A DNA stretch of 25,058 nt, taken from positions 1 through 25,058 of IMG/VR virus record IMGVR_UViG_3300027911_000062. The stretch is one strand, 5' to 3'. Position numbers and translations under genes: made by a program. Under the pieces are notes generated by a model that was not told the DNA's origin, searched no databases, and saw nothing but the letters and a program-made list of their open reading frames with translations. This DNA comes from a virus. Shown piece after piece: positions 2,503 to 9,382 of the stretch. The stretch's first letter is position 1. Each line of letters starts with the position of its first letter.

Positions 2503-2711
2503 AGGGTCTTCATCCTTACTATCTCCCGCTCAAGGTACCAGATAGCTTTACGCAGGTCCTGCTCTCTAGTCTCAGACGTCTTATGACCAGCACGCCACAA
2601 GTACTTGAGAGCATTCCCTGTGTTAAAGTCCATCCACTCAGCAACATCAATGCACTCAATGTTGTTGGGCAGCCAGTTGTAATGATCTGGATGGTTTACT
2701 GAACCAGCCAT
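2499..2711 (-). CDS. DUF3310 protein, T7 gp1.7 (nucleotide kinase)-like
   Basis: A 70-residue protein with the whole DUF3310 signature: VNHPDHY at the N-terminus, IECIDVAEWM, GNALKYLWRAGHK, then DLRKAIWYLEREI. T7 gp1.7, a nucleotide kinase, carries a related domain, and many phages keep such a protein beside replication genes. It may therefore feed the dNTP pool, but many family members lack biochemical proof. It overlaps the gene on each side (TGATG at 2711, ATGA at 2499), so it is translated as part of the leftward operon. Confidence 0.85.
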   Translation of the reverse strand: MAGSVNHPDHYNWLPNNIECIDVAEWMDFNTGNALKYLWRAGHKTSETREQDLRKAIWYLEREIVRMKTL

Positions 2712-3448
2712 CAGGGTAGCTCCGGTTCCATGTAGTTAGCCTTCTTGATTTCAGCATACACAAAATCAAGGAACTTGGGTAGATCCTCTGCCTTGAGGAT
2801 ATCAGGACCCTGAACATCAAGAACTTTGTACAGGTTCTTGGAGAACTTGGTAAAGGTCTTAATGTCAAAGTGTGTGGACCTCAGTTTCTCAAGATCCTCC
2901 GTTACTCCATGACAGCGAGCCTCCCACTCTAGCACCCGAGATACAGCTCTCTCCGCATACTCAGCTTTCTCTTGAGCATAGCGATAAAGACTGTCGTAAT
3001 CATGTATCATCAGGTTAGCTACTGCAGGTACCTGACTGGGCCAACGCTCTTTCATCTTTGACCGAAGAACGTCCGGAGAAGTTACAAACGACATATCCGT
3101 AGGCTTTGGTGCAGCCTTCTTCTTCAAAAAAGCTGGTAGCTCAAAATTAGGGAAGGGGTAAGCGACATCGTTGAGGGGTGGGGGAGGAGTAACCAGTACT
3201 ACTTGTCCGTCTAGCACAGTAAACGAAGCAGTCCAAACCCCACCCCCGAGTTGATTTAAATAATCATTCCGAGTTGCCTCATTACTAGAGTAAACGGCCT
3301 GTCCCGCAAAGTCATCTAAAGTACCGGCAGATACAAATCCATGATTCCAAGCACGAAGGACTTCTACCTCCCCCACATCATCCTCGTGGAGCAAGTCATA
3401 ATCTGAGGCGTCATAGACATACATACCCGGTTTAATAGGAAGATTCAT
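2711..3448 (-). CDS. Unknown protein downstream of the ATP-grasp gene
   Basis: A 245-residue protein I do not recognise. The first third looks beta-rich (MYVYDASDYD, VVLVTPPPPL) and is followed by a Lys/Pro linker. The C-terminal half (about 130-245) is helical and charged, with coiled-coil character (YAQEKAEYAERAVSRVLEWEAR). The ATG at 3448 is chosen over an in-frame TTG one codon earlier because AAGGAG lies 8 nt upstream of it. The start lies within the 3' end of the ATP-grasp gene and the stop overlaps the DUF3310 start. It may act with the amidoligase cluster, for example as a substrate or scaffold, but only position supports that. Confidence 0.7.
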   Translation of the reverse strand: MNLPIKPGMYVYDASDYDLLHEDDVGEVEVLRAWNHGFVSAGTLDDFAGQAVYSSNEATRNDYLNQLGGGVWTASFTVLDGQVVLVTPPPPLNDVAYPFPNFELPAFLKKKAAPKPTDMSFVTSPDVLRSKMKERWPSQVPAVANLMIHDYDSLYRYAQEKAEYAERAVSRVLEWEARCHGVTEDLEKLRSTHFDIKTFTKFSKNLYKVLDVQGPDILKAEDLPKFLDFVYAEIKKANYMEPELP

Positions 3449-4133
3449 CAAAAGACTCCTTAATGTTGTTGGCGTATACTAGCGCAGTACTGGGGCAAAT
3501 GCCGGGAGCACTGTTGACTTCCAGTGCAAAGCACTTACCCTTCTTTTCATTCCACACTACATCAACAGCCCCAGAGGCCGAGAACGATACCGCCGCCGCT
3601 GCACCCAGACCGACCTCCCGAAGATCTGCGGGTTCCACAATATCCTTGGAACAAAACACCCAGTCTCCATGAGTTCGGATCTTAGGATCAGGACTGGATC
3701 CCCGTCGCCGGCGCTTCTCTTGAACGAGGATAACCTTACCCTGCCAGCAGTGTACACGATACTCCTTCTTCTTGGGAATATACTTCAGGTACAGCTTTGC
3801 GTCAACTAGCTCGGCTCCTTTTTCGAGATAAATTGCTCCCTTTCCAGCAGCAGAGCATAGCAGCTTTCGAGCAATAACTGGTCCGGACTTGAGCCAGTCA
3901 CGGGCAACACTGGCATCGCGGGTGTACTCGGGACAGCTAACGCCGTGCTCTGTGAAGGCCTGTAGCGTGTGAAGCTTATTTGCGTTGATTCCATTAGGGT
4001 GTCCCCAATAAACAGGCTTTGGGCGAGGCTTTTTAGTTCGCCACACCTTATATCCCATAACCTTAGTCAAAGCATTAGCAAGCTGCTTTGCACCTCGGCT
4101 ACTCATTTTATACGGATGAACAGTTATCTTCAT
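3432..4133 (-). CDS. RimK-like ATP-grasp ligase
   Basis: A 233-residue ATP-dependent carboxylate-amine ligase. Visible ATP-grasp marks are an RK pair and glycine loop (PVIARKLLCSAAGKGAIYLEK, about 85-105), KKEYRVHCWQGKVI (about 122-135), the metal-binding D191 in GAVDVVWN and the E205-x-N207 pair in ALEVNSAPGI, matching the RimK/D-Ala-D-Ala-ligase ending. The basic run KRRRRG at 140-145 could hold a polyanionic substrate. It follows directly on the class II amidotransferase (ATGA overlap at 4130-4133), so the two are likely made together. The family joins an activated carboxyl group to an amine; the substrate here is unknown. The same kind of gene occurs in phiEco32-type amidoligase clusters. 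Confidence 0.85.
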   Translation of the reverse strand: MKITVHPYKMSSRGAKQLANALTKVMGYKVWRTKKPRPKPVYWGHPNGINANKLHTLQAFTEHGVSCPEYTRDASVARDWLKSGPVIARKLLCSAAGKGAIYLEKGAELVDAKLYLKYIPKKKEYRVHCWQGKVILVQEKRRRRGSSPDPKIRTHGDWVFCSKDIVEPADLREVGLGAAAAVSFSASGAVDVVWNEKKGKCFALEVNSAPGICPSTALVYANNIKESFDESSY

Positions 4134-5389
4134 TGTAGGATAGACTTCTCAAGAACACGCCCGCAATTCGCCCGGAAATCAGCGACACAGGCACCACAGA
4201 TCCACTTATCTTGGCGCATCTCAATAGCTCCCGTAGCTTCATCAGCCTGCCCAGCACAATCCTGACAGGTGTGTATGGTTTTTAGTACAGTACCCACTGG
4301 TGGGGTATTAACGTCATCAACCCAATAGATCTCCTTGAACTTGACTTGGTACGTCTTCTTGCCAGTCTCTGACGACAGCACACTACTGGGGATTGCACTG
4401 CCTTCCTTACCCAACAGATGGGCATGGGGCTCTCGGGTATAGAAGATAACATCTTCCAGATTGTCACCAGTAGCAAAGTACTTGAACTGGTTCTGACCAC
4501 TACCCACCATGCTATCCACAGTAAAGTACAGTTCATCAAGCTGGGTGTACGGCGTGATACGCTGTTCCACCTTCTTGGTAAACGGGGCCTGAGCAGGGCC
4601 GGGATTTACCGGGGTCGCCGGAGCCACTTGATAATAACTTTTGGGGCGCGGGAGTACCTTATCCACTTCCTCGAAGCCCTTGGGAGTCAACTGGTACAGC
4701 ACATGGGGCTTGAATGGGGTAATGTTCCCGGTTTCTTCCGTCTTGGGGAAGTACTTGAATCGCCCATACTTCTTGAGAGCAAACTCAAGCTCTAGCTCCG
4801 TAGACATAGCATAGCAGTAATCCGCATGCGAGAACTGGAACAGGGTACGCTCACCATTACGAGCAACAAACGTTTGGTGTGTACGCTTGTTGTAGGCAAT
4901 GATTGCAAACGCACCCTGAATACCCATCAGGGCCTCTTTAATGCCCACCTCATTGATCTTAAGGCACAGGGCATGGGAGTCTACCTCAACCCCACTGGTG
5001 GGCAGGTCTACGCCCCCATAAATCGTTCCATTGTGCACCAGCACCCAGTCACCCTCAACAAACGGATGGGCATTGGACTGCTTGATAGAGCCAAGAGTAG
5101 CATGCCGGTTGTGACCAAAGATCTGAGTCGCATACCGATTACCCTCTATAAGTGCCTCACGCCCTTCTTTTTGGTGCAGGATACTGAACGGACTACCCAC
5201 TGACTTGATGATATGCGGCGCATCGAAATGACCGTCCGTAGTAGTGTCTAGCTGCTTCTGTACAAAACAATACCCGGTTGAATGTTCACCACGATCCGTA
5301 GACAGAAGGCTCATCCAGTTAGCCAGCTTCAGATCTTCGGCTGAGGTCCACCCACCGCGTTTGTTAAATATGCCCCAAATTCCACACAT
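4130..5389 (-). CDS. Class II glutamine amidotransferase with C-terminal zinc ribbon
   Basis: A 419-residue Ntn-type glutaminase that would release ammonia from glutamine. ATG at 5389 puts the catalytic Cys at position 2 (MCGIWGIFNK) and has GGAGGT with a 6-nt spacer, so the longer upstream frame is rejected. Active-site marks are all present: RGEHSTGY (33-40), GHNRHATLG (92-100), NAHPF (106-110), HNGTIYGG (119-126) and DSHA (137-140). There is no asparagine-synthetase or GlmS sugar-isomerase domain. A Pro-rich linker (about 250-265) leads to an unfamiliar domain and a C-terminal zinc ribbon (C375, C378, C398, C401). The ammonia may feed the neighbouring ligases, giving a side-chain or terminal amide. 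Confidence 0.88.
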   Translation of the reverse strand: MCGIWGIFNKRGGWTSAEDLKLANWMSLLSTDRGEHSTGYCFVQKQLDTTTDGHFDAPHIIKSVGSPFSILHQKEGREALIEGNRYATQIFGHNRHATLGSIKQSNAHPFVEGDWVLVHNGTIYGGVDLPTSGVEVDSHALCLKINEVGIKEALMGIQGAFAIIAYNKRTHQTFVARNGERTLFQFSHADYCYAMSTELELEFALKKYGRFKYFPKTEETGNITPFKPHVLYQLTPKGFEEVDKVLPRPKSYYQVAPATPVNPGPAQAPFTKKVEQRITPYTQLDELYFTVDSMVGSGQNQFKYFATGDNLEDVIFYTREPHAHLLGKEGSAIPSSVLSSETGKKTYQVKFKEIYWVDDVNTPPVGTVLKTIHTCQDCAGQADEATGAIEMRQDKWICGACVADFRANCGRVLEKSILQ

Positions 5390-6234
5390 TAAAGCACCTC
5401 CGTAACAGCGATTGCCCAAGGGGCGTTGTTTTTCATCATTCCATACACTAGCTCTTCGTCAAAGAACTGAGCAGACTTACCCAGCACTACGTTAAAGAGT
5501 TTCAGGTAGTCATCCTGAATAACTGTGCGCTTGACTATCTCAACCAGTTCACTGCGATGCTCTTCGGCATACTTCATGAACTTGCACACAATCTGAATCC
5601 AACGACGATTCTTCTTCATGTCCCTATCGAAGTTGGCATGCCGAAACTCAACGGATAGCTGAGTCTGTGCAGGAGCTAAGTTAAGAGCACAGTACTTAGC
5701 CTCAGTGTACACACTAAGTCCGTTAGGGGCAAGGGACGTAATCGGATAGCAGTAAGGATTGTTTTGCCGGGCTTCGTTATGGAATGAGAAGAATACATCC
5801 TCAAACAAAGCATAGAGCGTAGGCAAAGCAAACAGTTCCCGCAGACTCCACTCAGACACATCCACATGAACGTGGATACTGGTACGAATAGAATCCATGT
5901 GATCTGGATACCGGATACCTAGCTCAGTCTCCAGTTCATATAGCGCATAGTCTATCGAATGACCAGACACCGGGACAGAAACAAACTCTACCCCATTATT
6001 GCGAAGGCTATTGTCCTTGGTGTATTTCCAGTACACCGAGTCCCGATAAACTACCAGACCACTTGGAGCGGGGCCAATGTTCTCAATCTCAAACTCCATA
6101 CCTATCGGCTTATAGAAAGCACCAAAGTAAGTAGGTATCTTACCGTAGCGTTCCATAGCAAAAGCCTGCCGTTCTACTTGACCGGCTAGTTTGGCTTTGG
6201 CGCCAAACATAGCAACTAAGCTCGGATTATCCAT
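5389..6234 (-). CDS. Amidoligase-superfamily COOH-NH2 ligase, type 1-like
   Basis: A 281-residue protein with the glutamine-synthetase-like amidoligase pattern (PF12224-type). GMEFEIE (45-51) supplies the first acidic metal ligands. DNSLRNNGVEFVS (74-86) follows, then SIHVHVDVS (119-127) with the paired histidines, and LSVEFRHA (193-200) with the Glu/Arg pair. Family members are predicted to form amide bonds between a carboxyl and an amine using ATP. Its stop (TAA, 5391-5389) shares a base with the ATG of the class II amidotransferase. The start at 6234 lies inside the end of the preceding gene with AGGTGG just upstream. Substrate unknown. Confidence 0.82.
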   Translation of the reverse strand: MDNPSLVAMFGAKAKLAGQVERQAFAMERYGKIPTYFGAFYKPIGMEFEIENIGPAPSGLVVYRDSVYWKYTKDNSLRNNGVEFVSVPVSGHSIDYALYELETELGIRYPDHMDSIRTSIHVHVDVSEWSLRELFALPTLYALFEDVFFSFHNEARQNNPYCYPITSLAPNGLSVYTEAKYCALNLAPAQTQLSVEFRHANFDRDMKKNRRWIQIVCKFMKYAEEHRSELVEIVKRTVIQDDYLKLFNVVLGKSAQFFDEELVYGMMKNNAPWAIAVTEVL

Positions 6235-6830
6235 TCTCCACCTATGTCAGTTAAAAGCTTTGCAACTGCAGGGCTGACGCCAAAGATTTCTTTGCCCTTG
6301 CAGAACCCAACGGCCACACCCAACAGCATGACCGTCCCATTGTCTATCAGGAAATTACTATCCAACAGCGTACCATGGCTTGTCTTACCTTGGGTCTTTC
6401 CTACCATGATCACACGCCGGATAGATGGGCCATTAAAATCTAACCCACTATTCTCAGTGTAGGCGCTGTATACATCATTGCTAGCTCCCCACATAAAAGA
6501 CTTATGCATCTTTCGGGTTATCCGATAGACTGAGTCCCCCACTAAACGATAACCCGCCCGCAGCAGTAAGGGCAGCAAGCGGATTGTCGTCCTCTCTGGA
6601 GGATTCTTAGCCGTTTCAGTGTCTACCGGATACCGGGCTCCAGATCCAAGATCTCCGTCAGGTTTTACACGATGGATCTCTGCTTCTGTAGTGTTTACAT
6701 CGTCGTTCCACCGGACACTCCCCACAGTAACAAGGATAGGCTCTGAGGTAGTCTTGTCTACGGCATAGCAGGTAGTACCTGAATACTTTCGACTCACATC
6801 CTCAGTGGCATACTCTAGGTAATGACTCAT
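6216..6830 (-). CDS. Unknown protein inside the amidoligase operon
   Basis: A 204-residue protein without a motif I recognise. It is mixed alpha/beta, with a beta-rich first half (CYAVDKTTSEPILVTVGSVRW) and a segment with a loop-like VGKTQGKTSHG (about 143-153) that does not sit in a convincing P-loop setting. ATG at 6830 has GAGG 7 nt upstream and overlaps the type 2 amidoligase stop (ATGA). Its end overlaps the type 1 amidoligase start. Being enclosed between two ligases makes it a strong candidate for a dedicated part of the pathway: substrate, carrier or partner. The WNDDVNT segment (about 41-47) resembles WVDDVNT in the C-terminal part of the class II amidotransferase. Confidence 0.7.
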   Translation of the reverse strand: MSHYLEYATEDVSRKYSGTTCYAVDKTTSEPILVTVGSVRWNDDVNTTEAEIHRVKPDGDLGSGARYPVDTETAKNPPERTTIRLLPLLLRAGYRLVGDSVYRITRKMHKSFMWGASNDVYSAYTENSGLDFNGPSIRRVIMVGKTQGKTSHGTLLDSNFLIDNGTVMLLGVAVGFCKGKEIFGVSPAVAKLLTDIGGEWIIRA

Positions 6831-7666
6831 ACGTATTCCTCAGAACGAACACCCAGACGCATCATCAGGTCCCGAGCAAGAGCCTTATCGTTGTGCTTGA
6901 ACATCCGAAGCACATCCTCCTCGTGAGCCTGACTAGTGAAAGACCGATGAGTACTGGCAGTCAGAGCCTTGGTGGTCAGGCCATAGACAGCCTGCATCAG
7001 ACTTTCAGACTTGAGCCAGAAGTTGGACACAGTGCGATACTCTACACCATAGTCTTTGAACCGCATGGCACCGGGGCGCCCATACAGTTCCTTACGGCGC
7101 TCATCCGTATCCACAAGGGTAGCCAGAGAACCTACCAGCATGTCCATGGCACGAACAACATTCACCTTCTGAAGATTGGTGAACTTACTAATGCCCCCTA
7201 CGTGGATATGACCACCAGCAGAGCGCAGGTTAGGGTCATTGGCGCGGGGAGGATTGTTGATCCGCATTTCCCATGCATTGAAGTCAGGACTGCAACCAAA
7301 CACACGGGCAGCGGGATGCTGTAACTCAGAGTCCGGCATTACTGCCGACGCATCGATACTCACCAGCAGATTCTGCTTGGCAGCCTCGGAACGGAGATAT
7401 TGGAGCATATTCCGATGGGCTTCGAGCCAATTGGCGGCACTCTTTGCCGGAGGGGTATTGTATTCCAGTAGCACATTGTCCACTTGGACAGCGTACCCCT
7501 TGCCAAGACTCTTAACTGCGATGGGCTCTTCCTTGGTGCCATTAAACCGGCCAATAGCACTGACATACCGGCCCCCAGTGTCCGTAAGGAACACTTCAGG
7601 ATCCGAACCAACCAGAATATACCGGTCCCGGGCATTGAGATCAGAAATGCTGACAGCTTCAGACAT
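6827..7666 (-). CDS. phiEco32-type COOH-NH2 ligase (amidoligase type 2)
   Basis: A 279-residue protein. The frame is open further upstream, but ATG at 7666 (MSEAVSISDL) has GGAG with a 6-nt spacer and lies in the tail of the hydrolase gene, so I use it. The type 2 amidoligase signature is clear: VGSDPEVFL (19-27), DNVLLEYNTPPA (63-74), GGHIHVGG (151-158) and YRTVSNFWL (210-218), giving the acidic, His and Arg positions of the glutamine-synthetase-like fold. The family was named for a phiEco32 protein. It is expected to make an amide bond at the expense of ATP; substrate unknown. Confidence 0.85.
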   Translation of the reverse strand: MSEAVSISDLNARDRYILVGSDPEVFLTDTGGRYVSAIGRFNGTKEEPIAVKSLGKGYAVQVDNVLLEYNTPPAKSAANWLEAHRNMLQYLRSEAAKQNLLVSIDASAVMPDSELQHPAARVFGCSPDFNAWEMRINNPPRANDPNLRSAGGHIHVGGISKFTNLQKVNVVRAMDMLVGSLATLVDTDERRKELYGRPGAMRFKDYGVEYRTVSNFWLKSESLMQAVYGLTTKALTASTHRSFTSQAHEEDVLRMFKHNDKALARDLMMRLGVRSEEYV

Positions 7667-8276
7667 ATTCAACTCCAAAAAGTTTAAACATAAGAGATTT
7701 GGTGTAATCGTAAATACTATTGCGTGAGTAGTCCCATTCAGGATGCCCTTGAACCCCCAAAGTACGTGTATCCTTCCAGTACACAACTTCAGGTTCTTCC
7801 ATAGTTTCTACAACATACTCTTTACCCTTGAAGCGACGACGATTGACTTTACCACCGTGCGCCAAAACATGACCGTCCTTTGGAATCATCATTTGATGAT
7901 GACAAGTATTAGTCATGATGATACGATTGTTTTCCTCAGGTATGACTAGGATATGATCCTCACCCACATGGCCCGGAACATCCTGAAACATACCACCACC
8001 TTGAATTGCACAAGCAAGCTGTGCACCACGGCAGATAGCGAGCACAGGGATATCCAGTTCCCATGCACGTTTGAGGGCTTCAACCTCTAGCTTATCCCGT
8101 AAAGATGGGACTGACTTGGCACTCGTCTTGATAGGAACTTCCCCATAGTATGATGGAGAGATATCCTCCCCACCATGCAGTATGAGGAATTTATGCTCAC
8201 GAGTCAATTCATCTGCACTAAGGATAGTCTCAGATGAACCAAACCGGTGGCACTCAAACAACATGCTTGCGTTCAC
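7659..8276 (-). CDS. Class I glutamine-amidotransferase-like gamma-glutamyl hydrolase (peptidase C26, PuuD-like)
   Basis: A 205-residue hydrolase. It has HGGEDISPSYYGE (34-46), the nucleophile elbow ICRGAQ with C82, and QGHPEW with H178 and E180 completing a Cys-His-Glu triad. PuuD-type enzymes cleave gamma-glutamyl amide bonds, so this one could trim or recycle a gamma-glutamyl product of the neighbouring ligases. The first codon is GTG at 8276, chosen because AAGGA lies 6 nt before it; it overlaps the TGA of the preceding gene (GTGA). An in-frame ATG four codons on is a weaker alternative. The same gene type accompanies amidoligases in phiEco32-like phages. Confidence 0.87.
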   Translation of the reverse strand: MNASMLFECHRFGSSETILSADELTREHKFLILHGGEDISPSYYGEVPIKTSAKSVPSLRDKLEVEALKRAWELDIPVLAICRGAQLACAIQGGGMFQDVPGHVGEDHILVIPEENNRIIMTNTCHHQMMIPKDGHVLAHGGKVNRRRFKGKEYVVETMEEPEVVYWKDTRTLGVQGHPEWDYSRNSIYDYTKSLMFKLFGVEYV

Positions 8277-8464
8277 AGGCTTTCCTTAAACTTGCGGAAC
8301 TCCTCATTAGTGACAGACGCACCACGAATGAGACGAACCTTGCCCTCGTTGACTTCAAACACCGTGTGCTTGTCCCAGCCTTGGCCAGTAAACACATCGA
8401 CAGTCTTGCCGTCAGTGCGGTGGAGAACTACGACGTTGCCTTCACGAACTGCTTTGCCGGCCAT
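8273..8464 (-). CDS. Small unknown protein, probable SH3/KOW-like beta barrel
   Basis: A 63-residue protein from ATG at 8464 (MAGKAVREGNVVVLHR), preceded by AAAGG with good spacing. A longer frame reaching 8524 would overlap the upstream gene and lacks a ribosome site. The first 50 residues alternate in a beta-strand pattern (VVVLHR, KTVDVF, KHTVFEV, KVRLIRG), as in small SH3-like barrels, followed by a short charged helix. Function unknown. Its stop overlaps the GTG of the hydrolase gene, so it is the gene immediately ahead of the amidoligase cluster and may belong to it. Confidence 0.65.
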   Translation of the reverse strand: MAGKAVREGNVVVLHRTDGKTVDVFTGQGWDKHTVFEVNEGKVRLIRGASVTNEEFRKFKESL

Positions 8465-8475
8465 GGTATTTCCTT

Positions 8476-9054
8476 TCAAGTAATAGTAACAAAGGTACAA
8501 ACTTCCTTGTGCCCGTACATCCATGACTCACTGGAGAACAGGTACTTGTACTTCTCAGGCTTACTGAATGCATACTGCTTCAACGAGGGTGAGACACAAG
8601 TAAACAGGAACGGCTTGCCATACTTGTTGGCAATCTCAGTCAGGCGATCCATATCCCGCTGACCATACACGTTAGCCATACCCACAGCACAACTCATCTG
8701 TGAATAGGCATTCCACGACATTTGACTTTGGGGTTCAAACGTCCAGATACCCCGCTGACGCATATCACCCGGCTCATCCCGCTCAGGCAGCTTATCTGCC
8801 CTGCGTTGGGAGATGTATTTGGTGGCCGCATTATACATCTTGTGAAAGCCGGTCTCATCTTCGTGGAATTGCTGGGAATTGTGGCGGATCCAGTAGCGCT
8901 CTACTGATGGGGTGATTGTTGCTACTGCAGGCCCAGAGGAATCGCTTTCATCCTCATCATCCTCATCATACTTCCCTCCATAAGGATCATCTTCCTCAAT
9001 GTACGCCGGCACATACTCTCCAAAAGTCTCATCAAGATTCAGTGTATTCGACAT
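8476..9054 (-). CDS. Unknown protein with acidic N-terminal region
   Basis: A 192-residue protein. I prefer ATG at 9054 (MSNTLNLDE) over the one at 9066 because GGAG stands 6 nt before it. Residues 15-45 are strongly acidic (EEDDPYGGKYDEDDEDES), then a region rich in Gln, Met, Tyr and Trp. No catalytic motif was recognised. The acidic stretch could mimic nucleic acid or bind a basic protein, but this is speculation. The 5' end overlaps the deaminase gene by 23 bp. Confidence 0.65.
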   Translation of the reverse strand: MSNTLNLDETFGEYVPAYIEEDDPYGGKYDEDDEDESDSSGPAVATITPSVERYWIRHNSQQFHEDETGFHKMYNAATKYISQRRADKLPERDEPGDMRQRGIWTFEPQSQMSWNAYSQMSCAVGMANVYGQRDMDRLTEIANKYGKPFLFTCVSPSLKQYAFSKPEKYKYLFSSESWMYGHKEVCTFVTIT

Positions 9055-9382
9055 GCTTAACTCCATAGAGGTTAATTGCAGATTGACATACAGGACATGG
9101 TTTAGCCAAGCGCGGCTGACCGTCCTTATCGAGCCTAATTACTAACAACCGAAGCCCAGATACGGATCGCTGGCGAAGTCGCCGCAAGGCTGCAATTTCG
9201 GCGTGTTCATATAGTCGTAGGGTATTACCTGTGTTGTGTGCGCACCTACGCTGTAATTTACTACTTTTGGAGTAGGAGTTATGTCCAATGGATACAATGC
9301 GCCTTCCGACAACGGCAAAGCATACGATTTTTCTTCGTCCTGTCCATCCGTTTCGGATGCACATGTCAATGTAGCGCTGCAT
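9032..9382 (-). CDS. Cytidine/deoxycytidylate deaminase-superfamily enzyme
   Basis: A 116-residue zinc deaminase. The active site is visible as H60-A61-E62 (YEHAEIAAL) and C96-P-V-C99 (KPCPVC). It is shorter than typical dCMP deaminases (about 170-190) and lacks an obvious regulatory insertion. The N-terminus is basic. It could deaminate free cytosine nucleotides for dTTP supply, a usual phage task, or act on a modified base or nucleic acid; the sequence does not decide. ATG at 9382 comes two bases after the previous stop (TAA GG ATG), with GGGG about 8 nt upstream, so it is translationally coupled. Confidence 0.8.
   Translation of the reverse strand: MQRYIDMCIRNGWTGRRKIVCFAVVGRRIVSIGHNSYSKSSKLQRRCAHNTGNTLRLYEHAEIAALRRLRQRSVSGLRLLVIRLDKDGQPRLAKPCPVCQSAINLYGVKHVEYTES

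Follow-up and report, generated by a model that had tools for sequence, protein, structure and literature searches.

An intact phage amide-bond cassette of a widespread type, with a probable gamma-glutamyl-cleaving step, in an IMG/VR virus fragment

The closest described system is a set of seven phage genes that was given the name 'peptidoglycan modification cassette' in 2017 and recorded for phiEco32, 7-11, PA11, tf, LUZ24, PaP3 and CW02 (PMC5498523); that article cites Iyer and Hardies for the cassette. Peptidoglycan as its target is a hypothesis from the literature, a role in superinfection is a published guess (PMC5498523, PMC10580990), and a search of the literature found no demonstrated product or reported metabolite. 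In LUZ24 (gp16-gp22), phiEco32-type phages, RIO-1 and PSA-HP1, the genes share the order PF14395 ligase, protein U, PF12224 amidoligase, glutaminase and ATP-grasp ligase, beside primase/helicase genes. The same cassette was found here in LUZ24, SCYZ1, Alcaligenes phage QDWS535, E. coli phage Bas86 and a crAss-like phage, and the order ligase, U-slot gene, amidoligase, glutaminase and ATP-grasp was seen in the first four of these as well as in ECO319P1. In Bas86, the PF14395 gene (locus L107, 8490-9798) is annotated as two joined segments that enclose a gene for an HNH endonuclease, and appears to be interrupted by an intron.

The locus studied here lies on a 25,058-nt fragment of an IMG/VR virus (IMGVR_UViG_3300027911_000062), referred to below as the window, and is an intact copy of this already known phage set rather than a new system. 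Sequence comparison bears on the families, active sites and gene order of the set, and adds to the earlier descriptions its strong conservation, its nearly phage-only range, its near-universal gamma-glutamyl-cleaving partner and the family of protein U as an extra conserved part. The right side of the window carries packaging and virion genes on the plus strand, and the minus strand carries early and replication genes, alongside which the cassette is probably expressed early. According to the terminase, the closest named relatives are QDWS535 (53%) and Caudoviricetes sp. MW202796 (49% identity). A first-pass annotation had proposed five enzymes with intact active sites at 3432-8276, and all five were recovered there on the minus strand by Pfam and PHROG searches, together with protein U between the two amidoligases:

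7659-8276, minus strand: peptidase C26 / class-I GATase-like gamma-glutamyl hydrolase, 205 aa, GTG start, C82-H178-E180
6827-7669, minus strand: COOH.NH2 ligase type 2, a GS-fold amidoligase (PF14395 E=1e-12, phrog_3815 E=9e-73)
6216-6830, minus strand: protein U, 204 aa, cassette-specific by profile, synteny and predicted fold
5389-6234, minus strand: Amidoligase_2, a second GS-fold amidoligase (PF12224 E=2.6e-6, phrog_7469 E=1e-23)
4130-5389, minus strand: Ntn class-II glutamine amidotransferase with Cys2 (GATase_6 E=8e-13, phrog_4736 E=8e-38)
3432-4133, minus strand: RimK-like ATP-grasp ligase, 233 aa (phrog_2599 E=1.5e-36)

Adjacent genes overlap by 1-19 nt, mostly at ATGA, GTGA or TAATG junctions, so that a single coupled transcript is plausible. 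Profile searches assigned both amidoligases, with PF14395 and PF12224 matches that exceed the Pfam cut-off, as well as the glutaminase and the C26 protein (PF07722 E=2e-17); the ATP-grasp protein stays under the Pfam cut-offs (R2K_3 E=0.16), and its family call rests on phrog_2599. Among NCBIfam models, the closest to the C26 protein are those for gamma-glutamyl-CDP-amidate hydrolase and PuuD, both far under cut-off, and in the PDB it matches PuuD (6vtv, E=2e-4). Solved relatives of the PF14395 ligase, the ATP-grasp protein and the glutaminase were sought by sequence and none found. The predicted active sites are also intact, as had been claimed: when aligned with about 85-90 relatives per family, the window proteins keep all fully conserved columns except the GTG-encoded first residue. 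The C26 protein has C82, H178 and E180, each of which is kept in 98-100% of 86 relatives. The PF14395 ligase retains the motifs DPE, QxDN..E, GGHxH, RR..YG, KxYGxEYR and SNxW, and the PF12224 ligase retains G45, E47, E49, D74, S76, E83, H121, H123, Y181, N185, E196 and R198. The glutaminase keeps its catalytic set (Cys2, R95, N120, G121 and D137) and has two CxxC pairs in its C-terminal region, and K53, G99, E124, R126, K140, D191, E205 and N207 are retained in the ATP-grasp protein.

Gene neighbourhoods were compared across 91 loci, 90 of which were chosen by their PF14395 ligase with the window as the remaining one, and were scored with iterated profiles. This sample was selected on a single gene and includes some near-duplicates and many truncated contigs, so its counts describe partners of the PF14395 ligase rather than independent events: the PF12224 amidoligase and the glutaminase were each found in 89 of the 91 loci, the ATP-grasp ligase in 85, C26 in 81, U in 68 and gamma-glutamyl cyclotransferase (GGCT) in 29. 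The first three of these partner counts indicate that the ligases are used together. Nearly half of the loci (45/91) have exactly the gene order of the window, a second layout with undetectable U was seen in 22, and between the PF14395 and ATP-grasp genes 86-98% of junctions overlap or are spaced by 20 nt at most; the shared order and the tight junctions together exclude chance. Replication genes surround the cassette in most surveyed loci, and no recurrent transporter or dedicated regulator was found beside it. The expectation of a conserved neighbourhood in phiEco32/LUZ24-type phages was thus borne out, and the window shows every feature of that type: the four enzymes, a gamma-glutamyl-cleaving enzyme, the order with U and replication neighbours. 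A search for related loci with the PF12224 protein alone returned nothing. Three loci (L047, L065 and L087) have an additional PF12224-like gene upstream of the C26 gene.

QDWS535 is the closest named relative (PF14395 protein 44% identical, related terminase) and shares the window order C26-PF14395-U-PF12224-GAT-ATP-grasp, but two added genes separate its C26 gene from the ligase gene, and a GGCT gene lies farther upstream. LUZ24 has GGCT without C26, whereas the window has C26 upstream of the ligase and no GGCT within its 25-kb fragment. A second type of cassette (type B), found in crAss-like and other large phages such as cr108_1, uses the same enzyme families as the window in the order ATP-grasp-C26-PF14395-GAT-PF12224; its GAT and PF12224 proteins are longer, GGCT is often duplicated, and neither U nor a replacement for it was detected.

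Direct searches with the sequence of the window U gave nothing by tblastn against phage records or by pattern in viral contigs, and assigned it to no Pfam or PHROG family. Its membership in the U family, which occupies the slot between the two amidoligases in 68 of the surveyed loci, was recovered by profile: a model built without the window ranks the window U first (E=0.012, against 2,000 shuffles and 541 other ORFs), and the runner-up occupies the same slot in another cassette (L018). In hhalign, the comparison gave E=0.0012 over 148 columns, with none of 150 controls as good and the program's own probability only 20%; identity to counterparts is only 12-18%, and the RQW motif of the family is only partly kept. 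The family model has a pLDDT of 94.5, and an AF2 model of the window U, built with the family alignment, reaches a pLDDT of 84 with the same order of elements; both match the same viral proteins, including those of CW02, Vp_R1 and RIO-1. Profile, synteny and predicted fold together place the window U, as a divergent member, in a conserved family of cassette proteins. Its globular fold is predicted to comprise an SH3-like barrel followed by a second beta domain; no whole-protein match was found in the PDB, and the resemblance of the first barrel to Hfq, Tudor/spindlin and RimP barrels (Z ~6) is too weak to name a function. The possibility that U was fused to, or derived from, the longer GAT or PF12224 proteins of type B was rejected, as hhalign gave no similarity.

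The first-pass annotation had listed three genes as candidate substrates or carriers. The one at 6216-6830 is indeed a conserved part of the cassette, but it is predicted to be a folded two-barrel protein, and so seems more suited to the role of an adaptor or accessory subunit than to that of a peptide substrate; those at 2711-3448 and 8273-8467 are not conserved, as no relatives of either were found in the surveyed cassette neighbourhoods.

Enzymes that cleave gamma-glutamyl bonds were sought over 45 whole records: C26 was found in 39 and GGCT in 15, with both in ten. Five of the six records lacking a PF07722 match have GGCT, and the contig of the sixth (L020) starts just upstream of the cassette and yields a partial C26 with a purpose-built profile. 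By these sequence matches, essentially every complete cassette is accompanied by C26 or the unrelated GGCT. Both act on gamma-glutamyl amides, and that two unrelated folds cover all checked cassettes supports the view that the pathway probably makes a gamma-glutamyl bond and then cuts it. Strict mutual exclusion of the two was considered and rejected, as several phages carry both, and their joint presence in QDWS535 and type-B phages indicates that they are not simply interchangeable.

The PF14395 ligase, which marks the cassette, was identified in several hundred viral contigs from metagenomes and in at least 315 records of sequenced phages. A comparable conserved-pattern search returned at least 549 relatives in viral contigs, as against 11 in 84,980 bacterial and archaeal genomes; these 11 are all on metagenome-assembled contigs, nine of them with several other cassette genes, and they are probably phage contigs binned with their hosts. 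This distribution centres the pathway on phages, in contrast to metabolism that is borrowed from a host. In a metagenome-assembled contig labelled Deltaproteobacteria (L105, 8986-14435), a PF12224-like gene occurs together with two PF14395-like genes (367 and 385 aa), with no other cassette gene in the stretch examined, and its ligases could represent a different cellular or viral use.

The putrescine pathway of PuuA and PuuD pairs a GS-fold gamma-glutamyl ligase with a C26 gamma-glutamyl hydrolase, and the pairing in the window follows a similar logic. However, the phage ligases are of the PF14395 and PF12224 types, the window proteins giving no match to PF00120, the classical GS of a PuuA/PuuD-type ligase, and a glutaminase and an ATP-grasp ligase are added. 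From the partner hydrolase and the fold class we infer that the ligases have gamma-glutamyl specificity. We propose that the PF14395 ligase uses ATP to join the gamma-carboxyl of glutamate to an amine in the cytoplasm, yielding a gamma-glutamyl amide, that the PF12224 ligase and the RimK-like ATP-grasp protein add one or two more amide bonds, and that the class-II glutaminase hydrolyses glutamine and passes ammonia to one of the ligases. The C26 hydrolase would then remove or recycle the gamma-glutamyl group, a job that GGCT would do in other phages, and U would act as a non-catalytic adaptor that holds the complex or its substrate. No transmembrane-like stretch was found in any cassette protein, which argues that the work is cytoplasmic, and the product would be destined for a cytoplasmic precursor of the envelope (peptidoglycan). 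A multi-step amide-bond pathway that includes gamma-glutamyl cleavage, as first suggested from the sequence, is supported by the families, the active sites and the partner survey. The proposal as a whole, in which an intact and widespread phage cassette builds and trims a gamma-glutamyl amide that is likely an envelope precursor, is put forward with a little less than even confidence; its conjectural parts are which reactions take place and in what sequence, what U does and where the product goes. A wall precursor is perhaps the single most likely destination, with a free metabolite and a protein tag as serious rivals.

The pathway might instead yield a free gamma-glutamyl or amidated peptide-like signal, inhibitor or defence blocker that is attached to no polymer. 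Puu and butirosin biosynthesis are protecting-group pathways based on gamma-glutamyl groups, and the cassette resembles them in logic. Its near restriction to phages agrees with such a product, as does the sensitivity of the cassette-carrying Gordonclarkvirinae to only one tested defence system (PMC11990801). The surveyed loci nevertheless lack a recurrent transporter or dedicated regulator and no such metabolite was found reported; this reading seems possible but on the unlikely side. Somewhat more doubtful is the tagging of a host or phage protein with glutamate or a peptide by the ATP-grasp ligase and the amidoligases, with trimming by C26 or GGCT. RimK homologues glutamylate ribosomal protein S6, a precedent for tagging of this kind, and the SH3/Tudor-like barrel of U is of a type that often binds peptides, at the weak similarity given above. 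R2K-family phage ATP-grasp ligases have also been proposed to modify host proteins (PMC7824862). Gamma-glutamyl cyclotransferases, on the other hand, act on small gamma-glutamyl compounds, and a glutaminase with two GS-fold ligases exceeds what a tagging system needs.

Hypermodification of DNA bases, by which phage DNA would be shielded from restriction, is disfavoured as very improbable, even though the cassette lies amid replication genes in most loci and the Gordonclarkvirinae resist restriction-modification in vivo without a known modification pathway (PMC11990801). The DNA of tf, a LUZ24-group phage with amidoligase and glutaminase genes, is cut by RsaI, HpaI, EcoRV, SmaI and HaeIII (PMC3517423), which argues against a general DNA-modifying role; moreover, the ends of phiEco32 were mapped via restriction profiling (PMC9965538), and no DNA-binding or glycosylase-like protein was found in the cassette. 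The window does have a dCMP-deaminase-like gene upstream of the cassette (9032-9382, PF00383 E=6e-7), which may be counted in favour of DNA modification; relatives of this gene occur near the cassette in about eight of the 91 loci. Equally little weight is given to auxiliary nitrogen metabolism, in which ammonia is brought into amino acids and the host grows faster. This was proposed for phage ZRK32, which has some of the cassette genes; when the phage was added, its host grew more on nitrate or ammonium (PMC10945688). Three ATP-dependent ligases working with a gamma-glutamyl-cleaving enzyme would waste ATP in such a role, and cellular genomes almost entirely lack the PF14395 ligase.

Published data on two other phages are counted in favour of the proposed pathway. 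Six early proteins were detected by mass spectrometry in preparations of Kuravirus SU10, and the ATP-grasp protein, the glutaminase and GGCT were among them (PMC4281155). Phage FJK, evolved on P. aeruginosa biofilm, acquired missense changes in its genes for the amidoligase and the glutaminase; the positions differed between rounds 15 and 30 of one passage series in which other genes changed too (PMC11450229), and these changes suggest that the pathway may affect phage fitness. It is also conceivable, if improbable, that an undescribed gamma-glutamyl small molecule or conjugate, built on or with U, shields phages from host defences or competing phages. The first-pass annotation had raised a possible defence or superinfection trait; a PADLOC search of eight proteins gave no match to a defence family. 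If true, such a shielding conjugate would span Pseudomonadota and Bacteroidota hosts and may help to explain the restriction resistance of Gordonclarkvirinae. That such a conserved synthesis by several enzymes occurs almost solely in phages suggests that infection involves an as yet undescribed chemical step. The survey limits the options: the ligases work jointly, a gamma-glutamyl bond is probably formed and later cleaved, and U is part of the pathway. Bas86 and its relatives, which are tractable E. coli phages, have the cassette.

Further sequence elements were observed in the window outside the cassette. The 17-bp palindrome AGTAGTAAWTTACTACT has four copies with 0-3 mismatches (9249, 10615, 11220 and 12328), compared with 0.03 expected by chance, and these lie between early genes of the minus strand, upstream of the cassette; an exact match was found in none of 106 loci, and the palindrome looks like a candidate operator of a phage regulator. 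Five exact same-strand repeats of AAGGTCGGTC lie on the minus strand between 9998 and 11171, also among early genes, with three further near-copies elsewhere. Between the HNH and primase genes, a strongly AT-rich block with nested palindromes (1636-1766) is a possible candidate for the replication origin.
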